From Bacteroidaceae bacterium (GTDB lineage: Bacteria; Bacteroidota; Bacteroidia; Bacteroidales; Bacteroidaceae): a stretch of 64,000 nt of DNA. Position 1 is the stretch's first letter. Each line of letters starts with the position of its first letter. The notes under the pieces are model-generated. The model was given only the letters and a program-made list of their open reading frames with translations, made no database searches and was not told the origin of the DNA. The stretch is taken from positions 1-64,000 of the forward strand of contig JAIKYE010000078.1 of the NCBI GenBank assembly GCA_024683455.1. Reading direction: 5' to 3'. This document shows positions 35,610 through 43,145 of the stretch, piece by piece. Made by a program: the position numbers and the translations under genes.

Positions 35610-36626
35610 ATGAAAGCTATACAGATCTCAGATACACATCTGCTGGAAGTCATTGAACTTCCGATGCCACAACCCGCTGCAGGCGAGGTGCTGCTGCGCA
35701 TTAGCTACGTCGGCTTTTGCGGTTCCGATCTTAACACCTGGCGCGGGCGCAACGCTTTGGCGCTGAAACCCGTTATCCCTGGGCACGAGATCAGTGCCAT
35801 CATAGAGAAGGTAGGCGAAGGTGTGCCCGCCAGTTTTCAGACAGGTCAGCTGGTCACCGTGGATCCATACACCGCCTGTGGCAATTGCCCCAGCTGCCGT
35901 CGCCGTCGTTTCAATGCCTGCCAGCACAACGAGACCTTAGGTGTTCAGCGCCATGGCGCTATGCGCGAGTACATCTGTGTTCCATGGCAAAAAGTGATTC
36001 CCGCCGAGGGACTTGCTCCCCAAGATGTTGCCCTCATAGAGCCCATGAGTGTAGGCTTCCACGCCGTGGATCGCGGTCAGATAACGGATGCAGATACCGT
36101 TCTCGTCATCGGTTGCGGCATGATTGGCGTAGGTGCTATTGTCAGAGCTAGCCTTCGTGGAGCCACTGTCATCGCTATGGATTTGGACGACGAGAAGTTG
36201 GCTCTTGCCCGCGAGTTGGGTGCCTCTGCTACCGTCAATAGCGGCACAGACGACATCCACGCCCGACTACAGGAGCTGACTGCCGGTGCTGGTCCCGATG
36301 TGGTCATCGAAGCTGTTGGCGCCGCTCCCACCTACAGCATTGCCATCAACGAGGTTGCCTTTACGGGGCGTGTCGTCTGCATCGGTTACGCCCCAGGCGA
36401 TGTCACCTTGCCCACCCGCTTCTTCGTGCAGAAGGAGTTGGACATTCGCGGTTCACGCAATGCCTTGCCTGATGACTTCCGCGCCGTTATCCGTTATCTG
36501 CGTCGTGGCACCTGTCCTACAACACGCCTCATCTCTGACATCATCTCTCCCCAGGATGCCGCTCAGGCTATGGCCGCTTGGGATGCCGCCCCAGGCAAAG
36601 TATTCAGGATATTAGTTAAGTTTTAG
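35610..36626 (+). CDS. Zinc-dependent dehydrogenase, probable L-galactonate 5-dehydrogenase
   Basis: Medium-chain dehydrogenase of 338 residues with catalytic zinc ligands (GFCGSD, GHE) and the four-Cys structural zinc site CGNCPSC-(7)-C, then a Rossmann fold (VIGCGMIGVGAI). Predicted to oxidise L-galactonate to D-tagaturonate, as LgoD of E. coli and the B. vulgatus enzyme do. The two flanking genes, a permease and a tagaturonate reductase, support this. Spacing is 3 bp on either side. Confidence 0.85.
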   Translation: MKAIQISDTHLLEVIELPMPQPAAGEVLLRISYVGFCGSDLNTWRGRNALALKPVIPGHEISAIIEKVGEGVPASFQTGQLVTVDPYTACGNCPSCRRRRFNACQHNETLGVQRHGAMREYICVPWQKVIPAEGLAPQDVALIEPMSVGFHAVDRGQITDADTVLVIGCGMIGVGAIVRASLRGATVIAMDLDDEKLALARELGASATVNSGTDDIHARLQELTAGAGPDVVIEAVGAAPTYSIAINEVAFTGRVVCIGYAPGDVTLPTRFFVQKELDIRGSRNALPDDFRAVIRYLRRGTCPTTRLISDIISPQDAAQAMAAWDAAPGKVFRILVKF

Positions 36627-36629
36627 CTT

Positions 36630-38099
36630 ATGAAAATCATCCAGTTTGGCGAGGGAAACTTCCTGCGAGCCTTTGTAGAATGGATTGTGCAGCAGATGAA
36701 CAGTGCCACGGGGGGAGGCTCTTCCGTTGTTATTGTAAAGCCACGTCCGGGTGACGGGCTGGATACCTTGCGCGCACAGGACTGTCGCTACCACGTGAAC
36801 CTGCAAGGCATGCTCGACGGTGAGACTATAGATTCCTTAGAGGAAATCACCTGTGTCAGTCAGGCCATAAACCCATACGAGGAGTACGATGCCTTTTTTG
36901 CGCTTGCCCAAGATCCTGAGGTGCGCTTTGTTGTCTCCAACACCACCGAGGCCGGCATCACTTTCCACCCCTCCTGTTGTCTCTCTGACACACCGCCCTC
37001 TTCCTATCCCGCCAAGCTCACGCAGTTGCTGTACCATCGTTTCCGCGCTTTCAACGGCGACCCCACCAAGGGCCTCATCATTCTGCCCTGTGAGTTGATT
37101 TTTGGCAATGGTCATCATTTGGAACACTGCATATATCAATATATTGACCTATGGAAAGCCGAGTTGGATAACGATTACGAAGTATTCCTGAAGTGGTTTG
37201 AGCAGTCATGTTCTGTCTGCACCACCCTTGTGGACCGCATTGTGCCAGGCTACCCCAAGAAAGATGCCAACATTCTTCAGGCTCGTCTGCCTCAGGCCGA
37301 CCCTTTACTGGTGCAGGCTGAGCCCTATCATCTATGGGTTATAGAGACAGCTCGTAACCTACCCTTGGAACAACTTGCCCACGAGTTCCCTGCTGACAAG
37401 GCAGGTCTGAACGTAGTGTTCACTACCGACGAGTCACCTTACCACCAACGCAAGGTCACCTTGCTGAATGGTCCCCATACAGTTCTTTCACCTGTAGCCT
37501 TCCTTGCAGGCTTGAACATCGTTCGTGATGCCTGTCTGCACGAAGTCATAGGCCCCTTTGTCCGTCACGTGATGTTCGATGAGCTGCTGCCCACGCTCAA
37601 CCTGCCCGAGGACGAGTTGCGCCGCTTTGCCTGCGATGTCATGGAGCGCTTCTGCAATCCCTTCGTTGACCACCAGCTCACCAGCATCATGCTCAACAGT
37701 TTCCCCAAGTTCCAAACGCGCGATCTACCCAGTCTCAAGACCTATCTCCAGCGCAAGGGCACACTGCCCCGCGGCATAGTCCTTGGTTTGGCTGCCATCT
37801 GCGCATATTACAGAGGAGGTCAGCGTGCCGACGGCACACCCATACAGCCCAATGACGACCCTCGCATCATGCGACTGCTCACCGATCTGTGGGAAACGGG
37901 AGATGCACGGGAAGTGGCCGAAGGAGTCTTAGCTGCCAAGGACCTCATCTGGCATGAGCATGGCGACCTGAACACCATCCCCGACCTTACCGACCTCCTC
38001 ACCGACAACATCGCCAGCATCTTAGAAAAGGGAATGATGGAAACAGTAAAAATAGTTGAGAGTGTAGAGTTGAGAGGCAGTTTAAAGAGTGAAAAGTGA
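36630..38099 (+). CDS. uxaB: Tagaturonate reductase (altronate oxidoreductase)
   Basis: Reduces D-tagaturonate to D-altronate with NADH. The 489-residue protein is a long-chain mannitol-type dehydrogenase: IIQFGEGNFLRAF at the N-terminus, VSNTTEAGI, and KVTLLNGPHTVLSP in the C-terminal domain, a UxaB rather than UxuB pattern. Its last codons (VESVELRGSLKSEK) are made of the low-complexity repeat that continues into the intergenic region, so the C-terminus has probably been extended by it. Confidence 0.92.
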   Translation: MKIIQFGEGNFLRAFVEWIVQQMNSATGGGSSVVIVKPRPGDGLDTLRAQDCRYHVNLQGMLDGETIDSLEEITCVSQAINPYEEYDAFFALAQDPEVRFVVSNTTEAGITFHPSCCLSDTPPSSYPAKLTQLLYHRFRAFNGDPTKGLIILPCELIFGNGHHLEHCIYQYIDLWKAELDNDYEVFLKWFEQSCSVCTTLVDRIVPGYPKKDANILQARLPQADPLLVQAEPYHLWVIETARNLPLEQLAHEFPADKAGLNVVFTTDESPYHQRKVTLLNGPHTVLSPVAFLAGLNIVRDACLHEVIGPFVRHVMFDELLPTLNLPEDELRRFACDVMERFCNPFVDHQLTSIMLNSFPKFQTRDLPSLKTYLQRKGTLPRGIVLGLAAICAYYRGGQRADGTPIQPNDDPRIMRLLTDLWETGDAREVAEGVLAAKDLIWHEHGDLNTIPDLTDLLTDNIASILEKGMMETVKIVESVELRGSLKSEK

Positions 38100-38173
38100 A
38101 AAATGTGAGATACCAACTTGTAAACTCTGAACTTACCACTGGCTCTAAACTCTAAACAATAAACTCTAAACTG
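38062..38173 (+). repeat. Low-complexity repeat tract between uxaB and uxaA
   Basis: Short degenerate units: GTTGAGAG/GAGTTGAGAG, AGTGAAAA twice, then TAAACTCT three times (38121, 38146, 38160). It begins inside the end of uxaB and runs to just before the uxaA start. Related AGTGAAA units occur at 45032-45060. No terminator or promoter box is evident in it. Confidence 0.6.
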
Positions 38174-38180
38174 AAAAGAC

Positions 38181-39800
38181 ATGAAAGATTTTCTCCAAAT
38201 ACACCCCGCTGATACCGTGGCGGTAGCCCTGCAAGAACTACCCGGTATCCCCGCCGGCCATAAGTTTGCCCTTCGCGACATAGCAGAGGGCGAGGACGTC
38301 ATCAAGTACGGCTACCCCATCGGGCATGCCACACGTCCCATTCGTAAAGGAGAGTTGGTGGACCACAACAATATCGCCACCAACCTAAGCGGAACGATAG
38401 ATTATAAAAGCCTCTCCCCTAACCCCTCTCCCGAGAGAGAGGGGAACTTTATAGCTGAGGGGAACAATCCTCCCCTCGCCCACGGGAGAGGGGCAGGGGG
38501 AGAGGCCGCCTTTCTCGGTTATGTGCGTCCCGACGGTCAGGTAGGCATCCGCAACGACATCTGGGTCATCCCTACCGTCGGTTGTGTAAACCCCATCTGC
38601 CGCCAAATAGTAGAAAGAATAAAATCAAAATTAGCTACCCTCCCTTTCGGGGGAGGGGCAGGGGGAGAGGCTTCCATTATTCATTTCCCCCATCCCAACG
38701 GCTGCTCCCAGCTGGGTGATGACCACGAGAATACCCGCAAGATACTGCGCGATATGATTCTGCATCCCAATGCTGGCGGCGTACTGGTCGTTGGCTTAGG
38801 TTGCGAGAACAACCAGCCAAAAGAGCTCGAGAAAATGCTGGGCGAGTACGACCGACAGCGCATCCGCTTCATGGTTTGTCAGGAAGTGGAGGGCGACGAG
38901 GTAGAGACTGGTGTGCGCATCGTCAGGGAACTCTATGAGCAGGCACAGAGCTACCAGCGCGTGCGCGTACCTATCAGTAAACTACGCGTAGGCCTCAAAT
39001 GTGGCGGCTCCGACGGTTTCTCAGGCATCACTGCCAATCCCCTCTTGGGCGCCTTTACCGACTGGCTCTGCACGCAGCAAGGCGGAACAGCCATCCTTAC
39101 CGAAGTACCCGAGATGTTTGGCGCCGAGACCATCCTCATGCGTCGTGCCGTGTCCGATGAAGTCCTGCAGCAGACCATCAACCTCATCAACAACTTCAAG
39201 GAATACTACCTCTCCCACGGCCAGCCCGTAGGGGAGAATCCCTCGCCCGGCAACAAAGCCGGTGGCATCTCCACCTTAGAGGAGAAAGCCCTCGGCTGCA
39301 CCCAGAAAGCCGGCACCGCCCCCGTAGTAGGCGTATTAGAGTATGGAGATAGACTTACCAGCCTCTCCCCTAACCCCTCTCCCGTGGGCGAGGGGAACTT
39401 GATAGCTGAGAGGAACATTTCTTCCCTCCCTCACGGGGGAGGGGTGGGGGGAGAGGCTGTTGGCCTCTACTTATTGTCCGCCCCTGGTAACGACCTTGTG
39501 GCCAGCACCGCCTTGGCAGCAGCAGGATGCCAGTTGGTACTCTTCACCACAGGCAGGGGAACTCCTTTTTCCACCTTTGTCCCCACGCTGAAAGTCAGCA
39601 CCAACAGTGACTTGGCCTGTCGTAAGCCCCAATGGATAGACTTCGATGCCGGCATCCTGCTGGATGGCACAACGATGCCAGAGCTGCTCCAGCGCTTCAC
39701 CTCCTACATCATAGATGTTGCCTCCGGCAAGGAGCAGACCACAGCCGAAGCTCACGGCAATGCCGAAATAGCCATCTTCAAAAACGGCGTAACGTTATAG
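38181..39800 (+). CDS. uxaA: Altronate dehydratase with three translated palindromic insertions
   Basis: Dehydrates D-altronate to 2-keto-3-deoxygluconate. The 539-residue frame has the N-terminal SAF-like domain (1-75) with GHKFALRDI and the C-terminal dehydratase domain with GIRNDIWVIPTVGC, HPNGCSQLGDDHENT, GLGCENNQ and LKCGGSDGFSGITANP. Three stretches are foreign to the family: residues 77-109 (SLSPNPSP...GAGGEA), about 152-164 (PFGGGAGGEA) and 394-426 (SLSPNPSP...GVGGEA). Each is encoded by a copy of the same palindromic element, in the same phase. All three fall in linkers between conserved blocks, and the known catalytic region motifs are intact, so the enzyme may still work. It ends the L-galactose operon. 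Confidence 0.92.
   Translation: MKDFLQIHPADTVAVALQELPGIPAGHKFALRDIAEGEDVIKYGYPIGHATRPIRKGELVDHNNIATNLSGTIDYKSLSPNPSPEREGNFIAEGNNPPLAHGRGAGGEAAFLGYVRPDGQVGIRNDIWVIPTVGCVNPICRQIVERIKSKLATLPFGGGAGGEASIIHFPHPNGCSQLGDDHENTRKILRDMILHPNAGGVLVVGLGCENNQPKELEKMLGEYDRQRIRFMVCQEVEGDEVETGVRIVRELYEQAQSYQRVRVPISKLRVGLKCGGSDGFSGITANPLLGAFTDWLCTQQGGTAILTEVPEMFGAETILMRRAVSDEVLQQTINLINNFKEYYLSHGQPVGENPSPGNKAGGISTLEEKALGCTQKAGTAPVVGVLEYGDRLTSLSPNPSPVGEGNLIAERNISSLPHGGGVGGEAVGLYLLSAPGNDLVASTALAAAGCQLVLFTTGRGTPFSTFVPTLKVSTNSDLACRKPQWIDFDAGILLDGTTMPELLQRFTSYIIDVASGKEQTTAEAHGNAEIAIFKNGVTL
38410..38506 (+). repeat. Palindromic element copy 1, in frame in uxaA
   Basis: 97 bp, starting GCCTCTCCCCTAACCCCTC and ending GGCAGGGGGAGAGGC, so the ends are inverted repeats and the whole can fold into a long imperfect hairpin. 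It begins at the second base of codon 77 and ends at the second base of codon 109. Confidence 0.9.
38634..38671 (+). repeat. Palindromic element copy 2, partial, in frame in uxaA
   Basis: About 38 bp that match the right end of copies 1 and 3 (GGGGCAGGGGGAGAGGC at its end), preceded by a CCCTCCC arm after a TTTC turn. It is either a 5'-truncated copy or an internally deleted short form. Its right end falls at the same codon phase as the full copies. Confidence 0.75.
39361..39457 (+). repeat. Palindromic element copy 3, in frame in uxaA
   Basis: 97 bp, same ends and length as copy 1, with roughly a fifth of positions different by eye. It starts at the second base of codon 394 and ends at the second base of codon 426, the same phase as copy 1. 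Confidence 0.9.
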
Positions 39801-39816
39801 TGATTATAAGGATCAA

Positions 39817-39865
39817 CAAAAAAATGTGCATTCTCGCGGACTTCCGCAGGAATGCACATTTTTAT
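39817..39865. terminator. Bidirectional terminator between uxaA and cvpA
   Basis: AAAAATGTGCATTC pairs perfectly with GAATGCACATTTTT around a 16-nt loop containing a small GCGGA/TCCGC stem. A-run upstream and T-run downstream allow termination in both directions; the flanking genes converge. Confidence 0.9.
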
Positions 39866-39885
39866 TGGGTATATCAATTACTCTA

Positions 39886-40257
39886 TTATAGCATCGAATT
39901 TATAGACTGCTTTAGAGGTTCCACCTTATCAAGCATAAGAAGAATAAAGCCAACGAGGATAGCCCACTTGAGGCAGCCTAAAAGGGCACCAAAAAGGTGA
40001 TTCAGGAAACCTGCAACGATAACGTGATCCAAGGCCTTGGTAAGCAGAGAGGCTACCCAACCTAAGGCTATGGGTGTGGCAAGGGTGATAAAGATGAACA
40101 CCCACAGGTTACACCCCACAGTCTTGAAGTAGTAATAGGCCAGTCCGAGACCTATCAGGAAGCCGCCCGCAGAGAGCAGCTCCTTGAAAAGTCCGTTTAT
40201 CCAACCTGATATCAGTCCGTACAGGAGAGCACAGATGCAGGCTAATTCAATGAGCAT
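39886..40257 (-). CDS. CvpA family membrane protein
   Basis: 123-residue protein with four predicted membrane segments, short for the CvpA family (usually 160-190 residues). CvpA proteins relate to colicin V production and envelope stress; no biochemical role is settled. The opening LIELACICALLYGLISGWINGLFKELL fits the family. Its ATG shares one base with the infB stop (TGATG), so it belongs to the rimP-nusA-infB operon. Confidence 0.8.
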   Translation of the reverse strand: MLIELACICALLYGLISGWINGLFKELLSAGGFLIGLGLAYYYFKTVGCNLWVFIFITLATPIALGWVASLLTKALDHVIVAGFLNHLFGALLGCLKWAILVGFILLMLDKVEPLKQSINSML

Positions 40258-43145
40258 CAGAGCTTAGCCTTTATCTCTATCTCCTGGAAGGTCTCTAGGA
40301 TATCACCCTCGCGGAGGTCGTTATAGTTCACCAGTGAGATACCGCACTCGAAGTTGGTGGTTACCTCCTTCACATCGTCCTTGAAGCGCTTGAGGGCAAG
40401 GATGGAACCTGTATGTACAACAATTCCGTCGCGGATGACGCGAGCCTTGTTGGTGCGGTTTACCTTACCTTCTATTACGTACGCTCCGGCTACCACACCT
40501 ACCTTACTGATGTGATATACCTGACGAACCTCTACCTGAGCGGTTACCTCTTCCTTGATTTCAGGACTGAGCATACCCTCCATAGCATCGGTTACCTCCT
40601 CGATAGCATCGTAGATGACACTGTACAGACGGATATCTACGCCCATCTGCTCTGCCAACTTACGGGCGGCAGCACTGGGACGTACCTGGAAACCTACGAT
40701 GAAGCAGTTCTCGGCAGCAGCAGCCATATTGACATCGCTCTCGCTGATCTGACCTACGGCCTTGTAAATGACGTTCACCTGAATCTTCTCTGTAGAGAGC
40801 TTGATGAGTGAATCGCTCAGAGCTTCTATAGAACCGTCCACGTCGCCCTTGACGATAAGGTTGAGCTCCTTGAAGTCGCCCAAGGCTATACGACGCCCCA
40901 GCTCGGTGAGGTCGAAACGCTTCATGGTACGCAAGCCCTGCTCGCGTGCCAACTGCTCACGCTTGGTGGCAATCTCGCGTGCCTCCTGGTCGGTATCCAT
41001 CACGTGGAAGGTATCACCTGCCTGAGGAGCGCCGTTCAAACCGAGGATAGTAGCTGCCTGAGCAGGACCTATCTTCTCTACACGACGACCACGCTCGTCC
41101 AACATAGCCTTCACACGGCCGTAGTTGGTACCAGCCAATACGATATCACCTACGTGCAGGGTTCCGTTGCTGAGAAGCACGGTAGCTACGTAGCCACGGC
41201 CCTTATCCAAACTGGACTCGATGATGGAACCTGTAGCCTTGCGGTTGGGGTTAGCCTTGAGGTCGAGCATTTCAGCCTCCAAAAGCACCTTCTCCAGCAA
41301 GTCCTCCACACCGATACCCTGCTTGGCACTGATGTCCTGACTCTGGTACTTACCGCCCCAGTCCTCCACGAGGAAGTTCATGTTGGCCAAGCCTTCCTTG
41401 ATCTTATCGGGGTTGGCTCCAGGCTTATCTATCTTATTGATAGCAAATACAATGGGTACGTTAGCGGCTGTTGCGTGAGCAATGGCCTCCTTGGTCTGAG
41501 GCATGATGTCATCATCGGCAGCCACAATGATAATGGCGATATCCGTCACCTGAGCACCACGGGCACGCATAGCGGTAAAGGCCTCGTGACCGGGCGTATC
41601 CAGGAAGGTTACATGACGGCCGTCGGGCAACGTTACGTTGTAGGCACCGATGTGCTGGGTAATACCACCGGCCTCACCGGCAATCACATTGGTCTTACGG
41701 ATATAGTCGAGCAGAGAGGTCTTACCGTGGTCAACATGACCCATGACGGTAACGATGGGAGCACGTGGAACCAAATCTTCCTCGGCATCCTCCACCTCTG
41801 TTACAGCCTCGCTAACCTCGGCACTTACGTACTCGGTAGTGAAGCCGAACTCCTCTGCTACGAGGTTGATGGTCTCGGCATCCATACGCTGGTTGATGCT
41901 GACCATGATACCAATCTGCATACAGGTACCGATAACCTGGGTTACAGGCACGTCCATCATGGTAGCCAACTCGTTGGCTGTCACGAACTCGGTAAGCTTC
42001 AGTACCTTGCTTTCTGCTGCTTCGTTCTCCAGCTGCTCCTCCATTCCCTGACGGATGGCATCGCGCTTTTCACGACGGTACTTGGCACCCTTGCCCATCT
42101 TATTGTTCTTATTGGTAAGGCGAGCCAATGTCTCGCGTACCTGCTTTGCTACCTCTTCTTCGCTAACCTCAGGCTGCAGGAAGGCTTGTTGCTTCTGCTT
42201 GTTCTTCTTCTTGCCACCGCCATTCTGCTGACCCTGGTTACCATTATTGTTGTTATTCTTTCCGTTCTTCTGGAAGTTCTGAGGCTGGTTGGCCACATCG
42301 TTGACATCCACACGCTCCTTGCTGGTGCGCAGACGCTTCTTACGCTCGCCCTGAGCCTGCTGCTGCTGGGCACGCTTCTCGTCGCGCTCACGACGTTTCT
42401 CCTCCTTACTTTTCTTCTTAGGACGAGTGCTCTGGTTGAGGCTGTCCAAGTCTATCTTACCCTTAACGGTAAGACCGGGACCGGGCTGTGGAGCGGGAGC
42501 CAGACGGAAAACACCGTTCTCCTCGATGCCAATCTCCTTCTTCTCCTTCTTTGAGGGCAGGGGCTTTTCCTCCTCAGCTTTCTCCTCAGGAGCAGCCACA
42601 GGCTCCTCTGCTACGGGAGCGGGAGTCTCTACGGGTGCAGGAGCTACTTTCTCCTCCTCGGGTTTCTCCTCAGGAGCAGCTACAGGCACTTCCTGCTTAA
42701 CTGCTACAGGCTCTTCTGCCACGGGAGCGGGAGCCTCTACGGGTGCAGGAGCTGCTTTCTCCTCCTCAGGCTGGGGCTTTACTTCCTCGGCTACGGGCTG
42801 AGGTTTTTCCTCCTCGGGCTGAGGCTTCTTGCCTTCCAAGTCTATCTGGCCCAGAATCTTAGGACCCTGAATATGAGGTTTCTCCTCCACATACTCTCCA
42901 ACGGCAGGAGCAGGCTTCTTGCGCTCCTTGGTCTGTTCATGACGCTGCTGTATAAGCACCTTAGCCTCGGTACGCAGGCTCTTATCGGTGCTGAATTCCT
43001 GCTGCAGGAGGGTGAATTGCTCATCAGATATCTTATAGTTGGGGTTGGCCTCAACCTCTGAGAAGCCCTTCTTCTGCAGGAACTCTACGGCCGTCTGAAG
43101 ACCTATATTGAATTCTTTTGTTACCTTATTTAATCTTACGCTCAT
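40257..43145 (-). CDS. infB: Translation initiation factor IF-2
   Basis: GTPase that brings initiator tRNA to the 30S subunit. The 962-residue protein has a short IF2 N-terminal domain (1-55), a long low-complexity region (about 70-330) of Pro/Glu/Ala repeats such as [10 protein letters not shown] and [13 protein letters not shown] followed by Lys/Arg/Gln-rich stretches, then the G domain with GHVDHGKT near residue 468, DTPGHEAF and NKID, and C-terminal domains with the fMet-tRNA-binding region. Repeat units of the acidic region occur twice almost unchanged, a likely source of length variation. 63 bp after nusA. Confidence 0.97.

Follow-up and report, generated by a model that had tools for sequence, protein, structure and literature searches.

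Palindromes that lie in frame within genes, also two to a gene, are already known in other bacteria, as passages of PMC3733652 record. The Rickettsia palindromic elements (RPEs; Ogata et al. 2000) are palindromes of ~150 bp that occur in frame in many unrelated genes, according to passages of PMC10969869 and PMC3733652. The intragenic REPs of the GTAG and CGTC types are portrayed in parts of Di Nocera et al. (2013, PMC3733652) as short hairpins, which also form inverted dimers and in-frame copies: uvrA or uvrB carries two REPs per gene, the REP ends often supply the stop codon, and CGTC repeats occur in five phyla including the Bacteroidetes. The word Prevotella is absent from the main text of that paper. 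The genes of TnpA-REP subclass 2.4, which are abundant in Bacteroidetes and Cyanobacteria, contain in-frame REPs without gene disruption, as stated in parts of Quentin et al. (2018, PMC6006769). Among the matches listed from the open-licence PMC literature, nothing dealt with the repeat family described below, with Prevotella-like enzymes that hold palindromes in frame, or with the replacement of linkers by several repeat families.

The window, by which we mean the whole stretch of 64,000 nucleotides analysed here, belongs to a genome (G000) assembled to 2.4 Mb in 107 contigs and 83% complete. In its uxaA gene, whose product of 539 aa matches the Pfam families GD_AH_second and GD_AH_C, three copies of a palindromic element are found (Table 1). 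A first-pass annotation of the sequence had proposed three palindromic copies here with one orientation and one codon phase, and both points were confirmed: there are two 97-bp palindromes and one half-copy, all in frame and all ending in ..GGEA. When compared as direct repeats, the long copies extend over 98 nt (38409-38506 vs 39360-39457) and are 87% identical without gaps. Each long copy is itself an inverted repeat, with 36-nt arms that are 83 and 86% complementary and lie 25 and 29 nt apart, and the short copy matches the right half of the long copies with direction and codon phase unchanged. In the window, CTCCCCTAACCCCTCTCCC, a 19-mer, has 4 matches when up to 3 mismatches are allowed, against a mean of 0 over 100 shuffles. 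The predicted RNA folds of the two 97-mers are strong (-66.4 and -70.9 kcal/mol; z -6.1 and -6.5). Neither the short copy (z -0.07) nor either of two single units taken from other genes (z -0.7 and -1.2) stands out in this respect. An Rfam search of 36500-40500 gave no match.

Table 1. Positions of uxaA and of its palindromic copies in the window, and genes elsewhere that host internal units
Feature	Position	Strand	Basis or remark
uxaA (altronate dehydratase), which hosts the three copies	38181..39800	+	ORF; Pfam PF04295 and PF20629
Long copy 1, inverted unit pair, predicted peptide SLSPNPSPEREGNFIAEGNNPPLAHGRGAGGEA	38410..38506	+	repeat comparison, fold
Left unit of copy 1, head GCCTCTCCCCTAA then hairpin	38410..38446	+	
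Spacer of copy 1	38447..38469	+	20/24 nt (38447-38470) match the spacer of copy 3
Right unit of copy 1, inverted	38470..38506	-	
Short copy, single unit oriented like the right arm, predicted peptide ..LPFGGGAGGEA	38635..38671	-	
Long copy 3, inverted pair, predicted peptide SLSPNPSPVGEGNLIAERNISSLPHGGGVGGEA	39361..39457	+	
Left unit of copy 3	39361..39397	+	
Right unit of copy 3, inverted	39421..39457	-	
GltB, GltD-like protein, LeuS, epimerase, EtfB, UxaA			hosts with internal unit; Pfam
DegT aminotransferase			host; two copies
Sigma-54 regulator			host; two doublets, one degenerate
GH2			host; two copies
GH127, M28 peptidase, sodium symporter with kelch-like part			hosts with internal unit

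The host gene apparently still works. Comparison with the uxaA of G021, the nearest species, gave a dN of 0.025 and a dS of 0.549 (dN/dS about 0.05), and purifying selection acts on UxaA; the open frame and this ratio led us to reject a pseudogene. An assembly artefact is also unlikely, in view of protein P0001 (core 98.9% identical), which carries the identical three inserts, is encoded on a 17-kb contig distinct from the 66-kb contig of the window and represents a cluster of 16 member sequences. UxaA is related to E. coli GarD (6u7l), on which insert site 3 maps between residues 409 and 412. In a structure model of UxaA, which is weak (mean pLDDT 64.8, pTM 0.64, 8 sequences), the residues that hold the inserts (70-107, 155-161 and 396-424) have a pLDDT below 50; since seven further stretches, one of them conserved (348-375), are also below 50, the low values are not special to the inserts. 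On the two sides of uxaA, other repeats were seen. The C-terminus of the upstream gene (..VKIVESVELRGSLKSEK) and the following gap, 38040-38180, resemble the AT-rich tandem repeats found in the uxaA linkers of other species, and just 3′ of uxaA (39820-39863) there is a 21-nt inverted repeat, 90% complementary and ending in T, which is probably an ordinary terminator.

Genome-wide comparison resolved the 97-mer into two units of ~37 nt, which are inverted with their heads outward around a 23-nt spacer. The unit opens with the 13-nt head GCCTC(A/T)CCCCTAA, continues as a hairpin (for example CCCCTCTCC-CGTG-GGCGAGGGG) and closes with AA. The stem has 9 pairs with one common mismatch. Over the 224 units compared, it is nearly constant except for one variable position (T-C in 101, T-A in 102 and C-G in 12), and the loop-closing pair is C-A in 28. 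Inverted doublets, which have terminal inverted repeats, and single units both occur, as in REPs and REPINs (BIMEs); a REP hairpin is an imperfect one of 20-40 nt in many copies, and here a 37-nt unit is present at 64 places in G000. The printed units, with the head GCCTCACCCCTAA and the tail AA, carry no GTAG/GTGG (or CGTC) foot tag, and no target-site duplication, which in a MITE accompanies the terminal inverted repeats, was readable in leuS or gltB. A second type of hairpin with the identical head was also noticed at L097, L112:1908 and L094:643 (contigs C88, C11 and C83 of G000), where GCCTCACCCCTAACC is followed by a hairpin with CGTCGCGAATGGGGA or a sequence close to it; judging from these sites, heads and hairpins look as if they were exchangeable.

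This unit is dispersed. With up to 3 mismatches, the 22-nt half-unit occurs at 64 places in G000, as compared with 1 for the reversed control; a genome search gave 82 match rows with both strands counted, so the further copies that the first-pass annotation had suggested looking for are indeed numerous. A further dispersal search gave 55 against 8 for the reversed pattern, and the exact IUPAC form occurs 48 times in G000 (control 2). This exact form is present in 89 of 139 genomes of the same genus, ranging from 0 to 67 (G138), and the exact 22-mer in at least 112 stretches of named records. Among the 80 titles listed with the exact 22-mer, most are MAGs of Prevotella sp., Prevotellaceae, Bacteroidaceae or Bacteroidales, and a few are of Chitinophagaceae, Ferruginibacter, Cytophagales, Desulfamplus and others; the records with a near UxaA likewise have titles including Prevotella sp. 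and Bacteroidaceae bacterium. MAGs built from short reads may hide copies or mix strains. Two side observations concern the range of carriers: the named isolate Bacteroides ndongoniae (L291) carries a unit in the sense direction 5 nt behind a gene, and the exact 22-mer occurs in five viral contigs (L455-L459), which are possibly prophage or host sequence. The presence of other copies in the genome, together with inserts that vary among relatives, supports the earlier suggestion of a mobile element rather than fixed inserts.

The 97-bp element is very probably made of two inverted copies of a short REP-type palindrome that multiplied in G000 and its relatives, an arrangement like that of a REPIN or BIME. 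In this explanation, copies would enter genes now and then by a single-strand or recombination process, and selection would keep only those copies that lie in frame in surface linkers, where a Pro/Gly-rich peptide may be tolerated; local copying within uxaA and the refilling of linkers by other repeats would complete the picture.

What moves the unit bears on the strongest of the alternatives, in which it is a canonical REP and a RAYT (TnpA-REP), lost to view in the incomplete assembly, mobilises it in trans. The hairpin with a stem mismatch, the inverted doublets, the single units and the high copy number agree with such a system, as do the completeness of G000, only 83%, and the subclass 2.4 RAYTs, which are common in Bacteroidetes and carry in-frame REPs as parts of PMC6006769 describe. 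However, the unit lacks a GTAG/GTGG foot, and no search that was made located a RAYT beside a unit. None of the 51 sampled PF01797 loci of the genus had an adjoining unit; some of these loci are weak matches, L232 does not resemble a transposase, and the nearest unit to these loci is a 4-mismatch copy at ~1.1 kb (L226). G000 itself has one Y1 transposase fragment, cut by the contig end. Among the 112 named loci, a single Y1 gene was found, and it sits 1.5 kb from a unit. Moreover, G036 (42 exact units), G023 (35), G021 (28) and G011 (14) are unit-rich without a PF01797 match, although all four genomes are incomplete (G011 is 92% complete). We thus regard the missing RAYT as a possible explanation against which the balance leans. 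Apart from this question, the Y1-transposase-like proteins L215, L216, L218, L219, L222 and L228 were seen to carry variable tandem repeats (e.g. NAAEVHGGERD) behind the HUH motif, and these stretches are reminiscent of the variable domain known from TnpA-REP subclass 2.4.

We also examined how the units are placed relative to genes. The fetched stretches of G000 contain 68 clusters with up to 5 mismatches. By the codon-model gene finder, which like the frame classifier is a simple codon-usage script, 26 of 67 half-units of G000 (up to 3 mismatches) are intragenic: 20 are read in sense in the SLTPNPSP frame, 2 in sense in the ASPLTPL frame, and 4, all of them doublet arms, are antisense. The sense intragenic units in the SLxPNPSP frame number 20 of 22 in G000, 46 of 50 in the named contigs, 7 of 7 in G138 and 4 of 7 in G102, where G138 and G102 are represented by the first 30 places each (of 67 and 52; 30 and 27 units). 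Random positions, by contrast, are spread by the frame classifier across all six phases. Sense intragenic copies therefore mostly use one reading frame, with the predicted peptide SLTPNPSPxGEG, and the impression that SPNPSPxGEG stretches recur in other proteins was right for this genome. Genes are poor in units, though not free of them. In the named contigs, an ORF of at least 250 aa runs through 64 of the 119 exact matches, as compared with 1753 of 2380 random positions, and under the strict classifier 11 of 58 clusters of G000 are intragenic in frame, as compared with 155 of 356 random positions. This depletion fits the expectation if most insertions are harmful. Pfam identified 18 of the 19 host ORFs scanned, and 12 of the hosts enclose at least one unit with the predicted reading S/G-L-x-P-x-P (Table 1); in thymidine kinase and a U32 peptidase, the unit forms the predicted C-terminal tail. 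The phase in other genes, which the first-pass annotation had proposed to compare, thus proved to be in frame for many copies, including those in gltB, leuS, etfB and the sigma-54 regulator gene.

Sites without the unit were found among relatives, as the notion of a mobile insert had led one to expect: empty ones in leuS and gltB, and ones with other fillers in uxaA. The leuS and gltB genes were searched in 61 of the 139 genomes, of which 57 and 33 had a match, and 30 loci of each were aligned. The leuS insert GLTPNPSSVGEG is present in G000 alone among the 30 aligned sequences, and G070 has a different SLTP-type insert in that linker. In the gltB of G000, G104 and G022, a left and a right unit flank a stretch of ~100 nt made up of conserved host codons. 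Among the rows listed of the 30, both places are empty in G110, G052, G089, G073, G083 and G012, and the GltB of G089 is 95% identical over 862 matched residues. These linkers are highly variable, and some of the seemingly empty forms may be remnants. It was also observed at the gltB loci L090, L380 and L397, from three species, that a doublet can enclose host sequence.

The strand of the units is relevant to a second alternative, in which insertion depends on transcription or RNA, with units arriving in transcript sense, often just behind stop codons. In G000, the single intragenic units (up to 3 mismatches) are all in sense (14 of 14), units in gaps between genes of the same direction are 17 in sense and 4 antisense, and 17 of the 32 units behind a same-strand gene begin -1 to +12 nt from the stop codon. 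The gaps show a similar tendency in the named set (34 to 13) and in the same-direction gaps of G102 (12 to 1). The genes of other genomes, however, do not repeat this pattern: G138 has 5 sense and 6 antisense single intragenic units, with 6 to 4 in same-direction gaps, and among the single intragenic units of the named set, 42 of 58 are in sense and 16 antisense (for all intragenic units, 50 and 29 of 79). Even G000 has a lone antisense unit within a gene, the short copy in uxaA, whose 4 mismatches place it outside the count of 14. The sense bias is marked in G000, not general, and selection on the peptide or on 3′ ends could yield the same bias. Strict insertion on the sense strand, as G000 by itself had suggested, is weakened by the result inside the genes of G138 and by the antisense short copy, and insertion dependent on transcription or RNA is an unlikely explanation as a whole.

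Clarification of the history of the inserts was sought in uxaA itself. Fifty-seven sequences were aligned, with the second UxaA copy of G138 and the partial copies of G095 and G125 set aside, and 56 of the 57 rows entered the tree after L155, a contig-end fragment, was dropped. The fillers were labelled as family 1 (the unit described above), family 2 or AT-rich (F1/F2/AT) by regular expressions, and some of them are mosaics. At site 1, a like doublet is present in G000, G021 and G104, while G033 and G036, which are also in that part of the UxaA tree, hold other fillers. At sites 2 and 3, G000 has family-1 units and G021 has AT-rich fillers, with 374 of 394 core residues equal between the two proteins. 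Site 3 of G104 is a mosaic that includes a family-1 unit, and the rough labels mark a few more species. The fewest filler-type changes on the tree, a quick one, are 11, 4 and 4 for sites 1-3. Close pairs differ as well: 368 of 375 core residues are equal between G104 and G036 (dS 0.127), yet sites 1 and 3 differ. Site 3 of G036 is nearly empty, and G036 retains GACTC|TGAGGCT, as after an in-frame loss. Among the metagenome proteins, P0003 and P0006 (core 99.8% identical) differ at sites 1 and 2, and P0003 and P0004 (99.3% identical) at site 3, although strain mixing could contribute to these differences.

Family 2 is another palindrome of ~116 nt with the head GACTCTCCCC. Three copies of it occupy the same three uxaA linkers in G035, and it is found in two linkers in G092. 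With at most 40 candidates scored per genome, its match rows number 99 in G035, 85 in G114, 69 in G092, 50 in G011, 26 in G060 and 9 in G033, and are few in G104 (5), G021 (2), G000 (1) and G089 (0). According to these counts, the filler tends to be the family that is common in its genome, with the exceptions of G033, which has few family 2 copies, and of G035, which is rich in both families (36 exact family-1 half-units besides family 2). In other species, the sites are filled by AT-rich tandem repeats with the predicted peptides NSQLSTLN or NENDNVND. A third GC-rich filler, whose predicted peptide is like LPRNGESLAPLDSCAPATPLPDGRGQGV, was noticed at site 2 in four species (L130, L132, L136 and L155). 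The three uxaA linkers are hotspots that hold different repeat families in different species. A broader reading, which we offer tentatively and would place slightly short of an even chance, is that unrelated intergenic repeat families (the two REP-like palindromes, the third GC-rich filler and the AT-rich tandem repeats) compete for fixed protein linkers of this genus and replace each other there. The linker would then be a docking site whose turnover is far faster than that of the enzyme, and repeat DNA would continually supply and reshuffle enzyme linkers.

Within uxaA of G000, the spacers of copies 1 and 3 are identical at 20 of 24 nt, and the nearest relatives of the single arms are scattered over many places of the genome. 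Elsewhere in G000, none of the candidates scored, at most 40, matched the 97-mer over its full length at more than 72%, and in the fetched stretches nothing outside uxaA reached 60 of 97 matching positions in ungapped comparison. Because copies 1 and 3 have this spacer in common and no other full-length doublet was seen, copy 3 probably arose inside uxaA as a local copy of the first. A single arrival at site 1, with copying from there, is the likely course, and three independent arrivals seem unlikely. An old local duplication, in which the repeats arose inside uxaA and are unrelated to any mobile family, would account for the shared spacer and the missing full-length matches, but the units at 64 places and in unrelated genes, and the different content of uxaA sites 2 and 3 in the nearest relatives, make it very improbable and lead us to reject it as the sole account, while it could explain the filling of site 3 and perhaps of site 2. 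Of the proposal that a mobile element entered one gene three times, then, the mobile part stands in the form of a dispersed family, and the threefold entry gives way to a probable local copying of copy 3. Dispersed family and local duplication appear to act together, a mix of the two alternatives that the first-pass annotation had set apart. Under the preferred explanation of a dispersed REP-type doublet, the site 1 doublet would have been in uxaA before G000, G021 and G104 split, or have been shared by recombination; copying inside uxaA may then have placed the whole doublet at site 3 and half of it at site 2, and a linker that tolerates one repeat could be refilled by others.

In this diverse lineage, many close relatives have been sequenced and the repeats occur in core enzymes, so that one can follow insertion, frame choice, local copying, replacement and loss at a dS of ~0.1. 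The enzymes provide a natural series for how linkers are gained and how much extra sequence is tolerated, and also for how REP-like DNA moves when no transposase is in sight. For annotators, they are a warning that SLTPNPSP-like peptides may derive from repeats.

Compared with the described systems, the present family resembles TnpA-REP subclass 2.4, as characterised in parts of its description, in the phylum Bacteroidetes and in having in-frame REPs; unlike there, where the transposase gene hosts the REPs, the hosts here are metabolic and housekeeping enzymes, and no cognate transposase was found. With the GTAG/CGTC REPs, so far as passages on them go, it shares short hairpins, inverted dimers, in-frame copies and two copies per gene, but its unit is without a GTAG or CGTC end tag. 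The parallel to the Rickettsia palindromic elements that had been drawn from the first reading was borne out, and the likeness extends to the intragenic REPs; both are already known. As with the RPEs, which were compared by description, a palindrome lies in frame within unrelated genes here too, judging from open frames and predicted peptides. The present family differs from the RPEs in that it is built from 37-nt units, one or two at a time and each with a 13-nt head, which occur as singles, doublets and mosaics, and in that its linkers are refilled by other repeat families.
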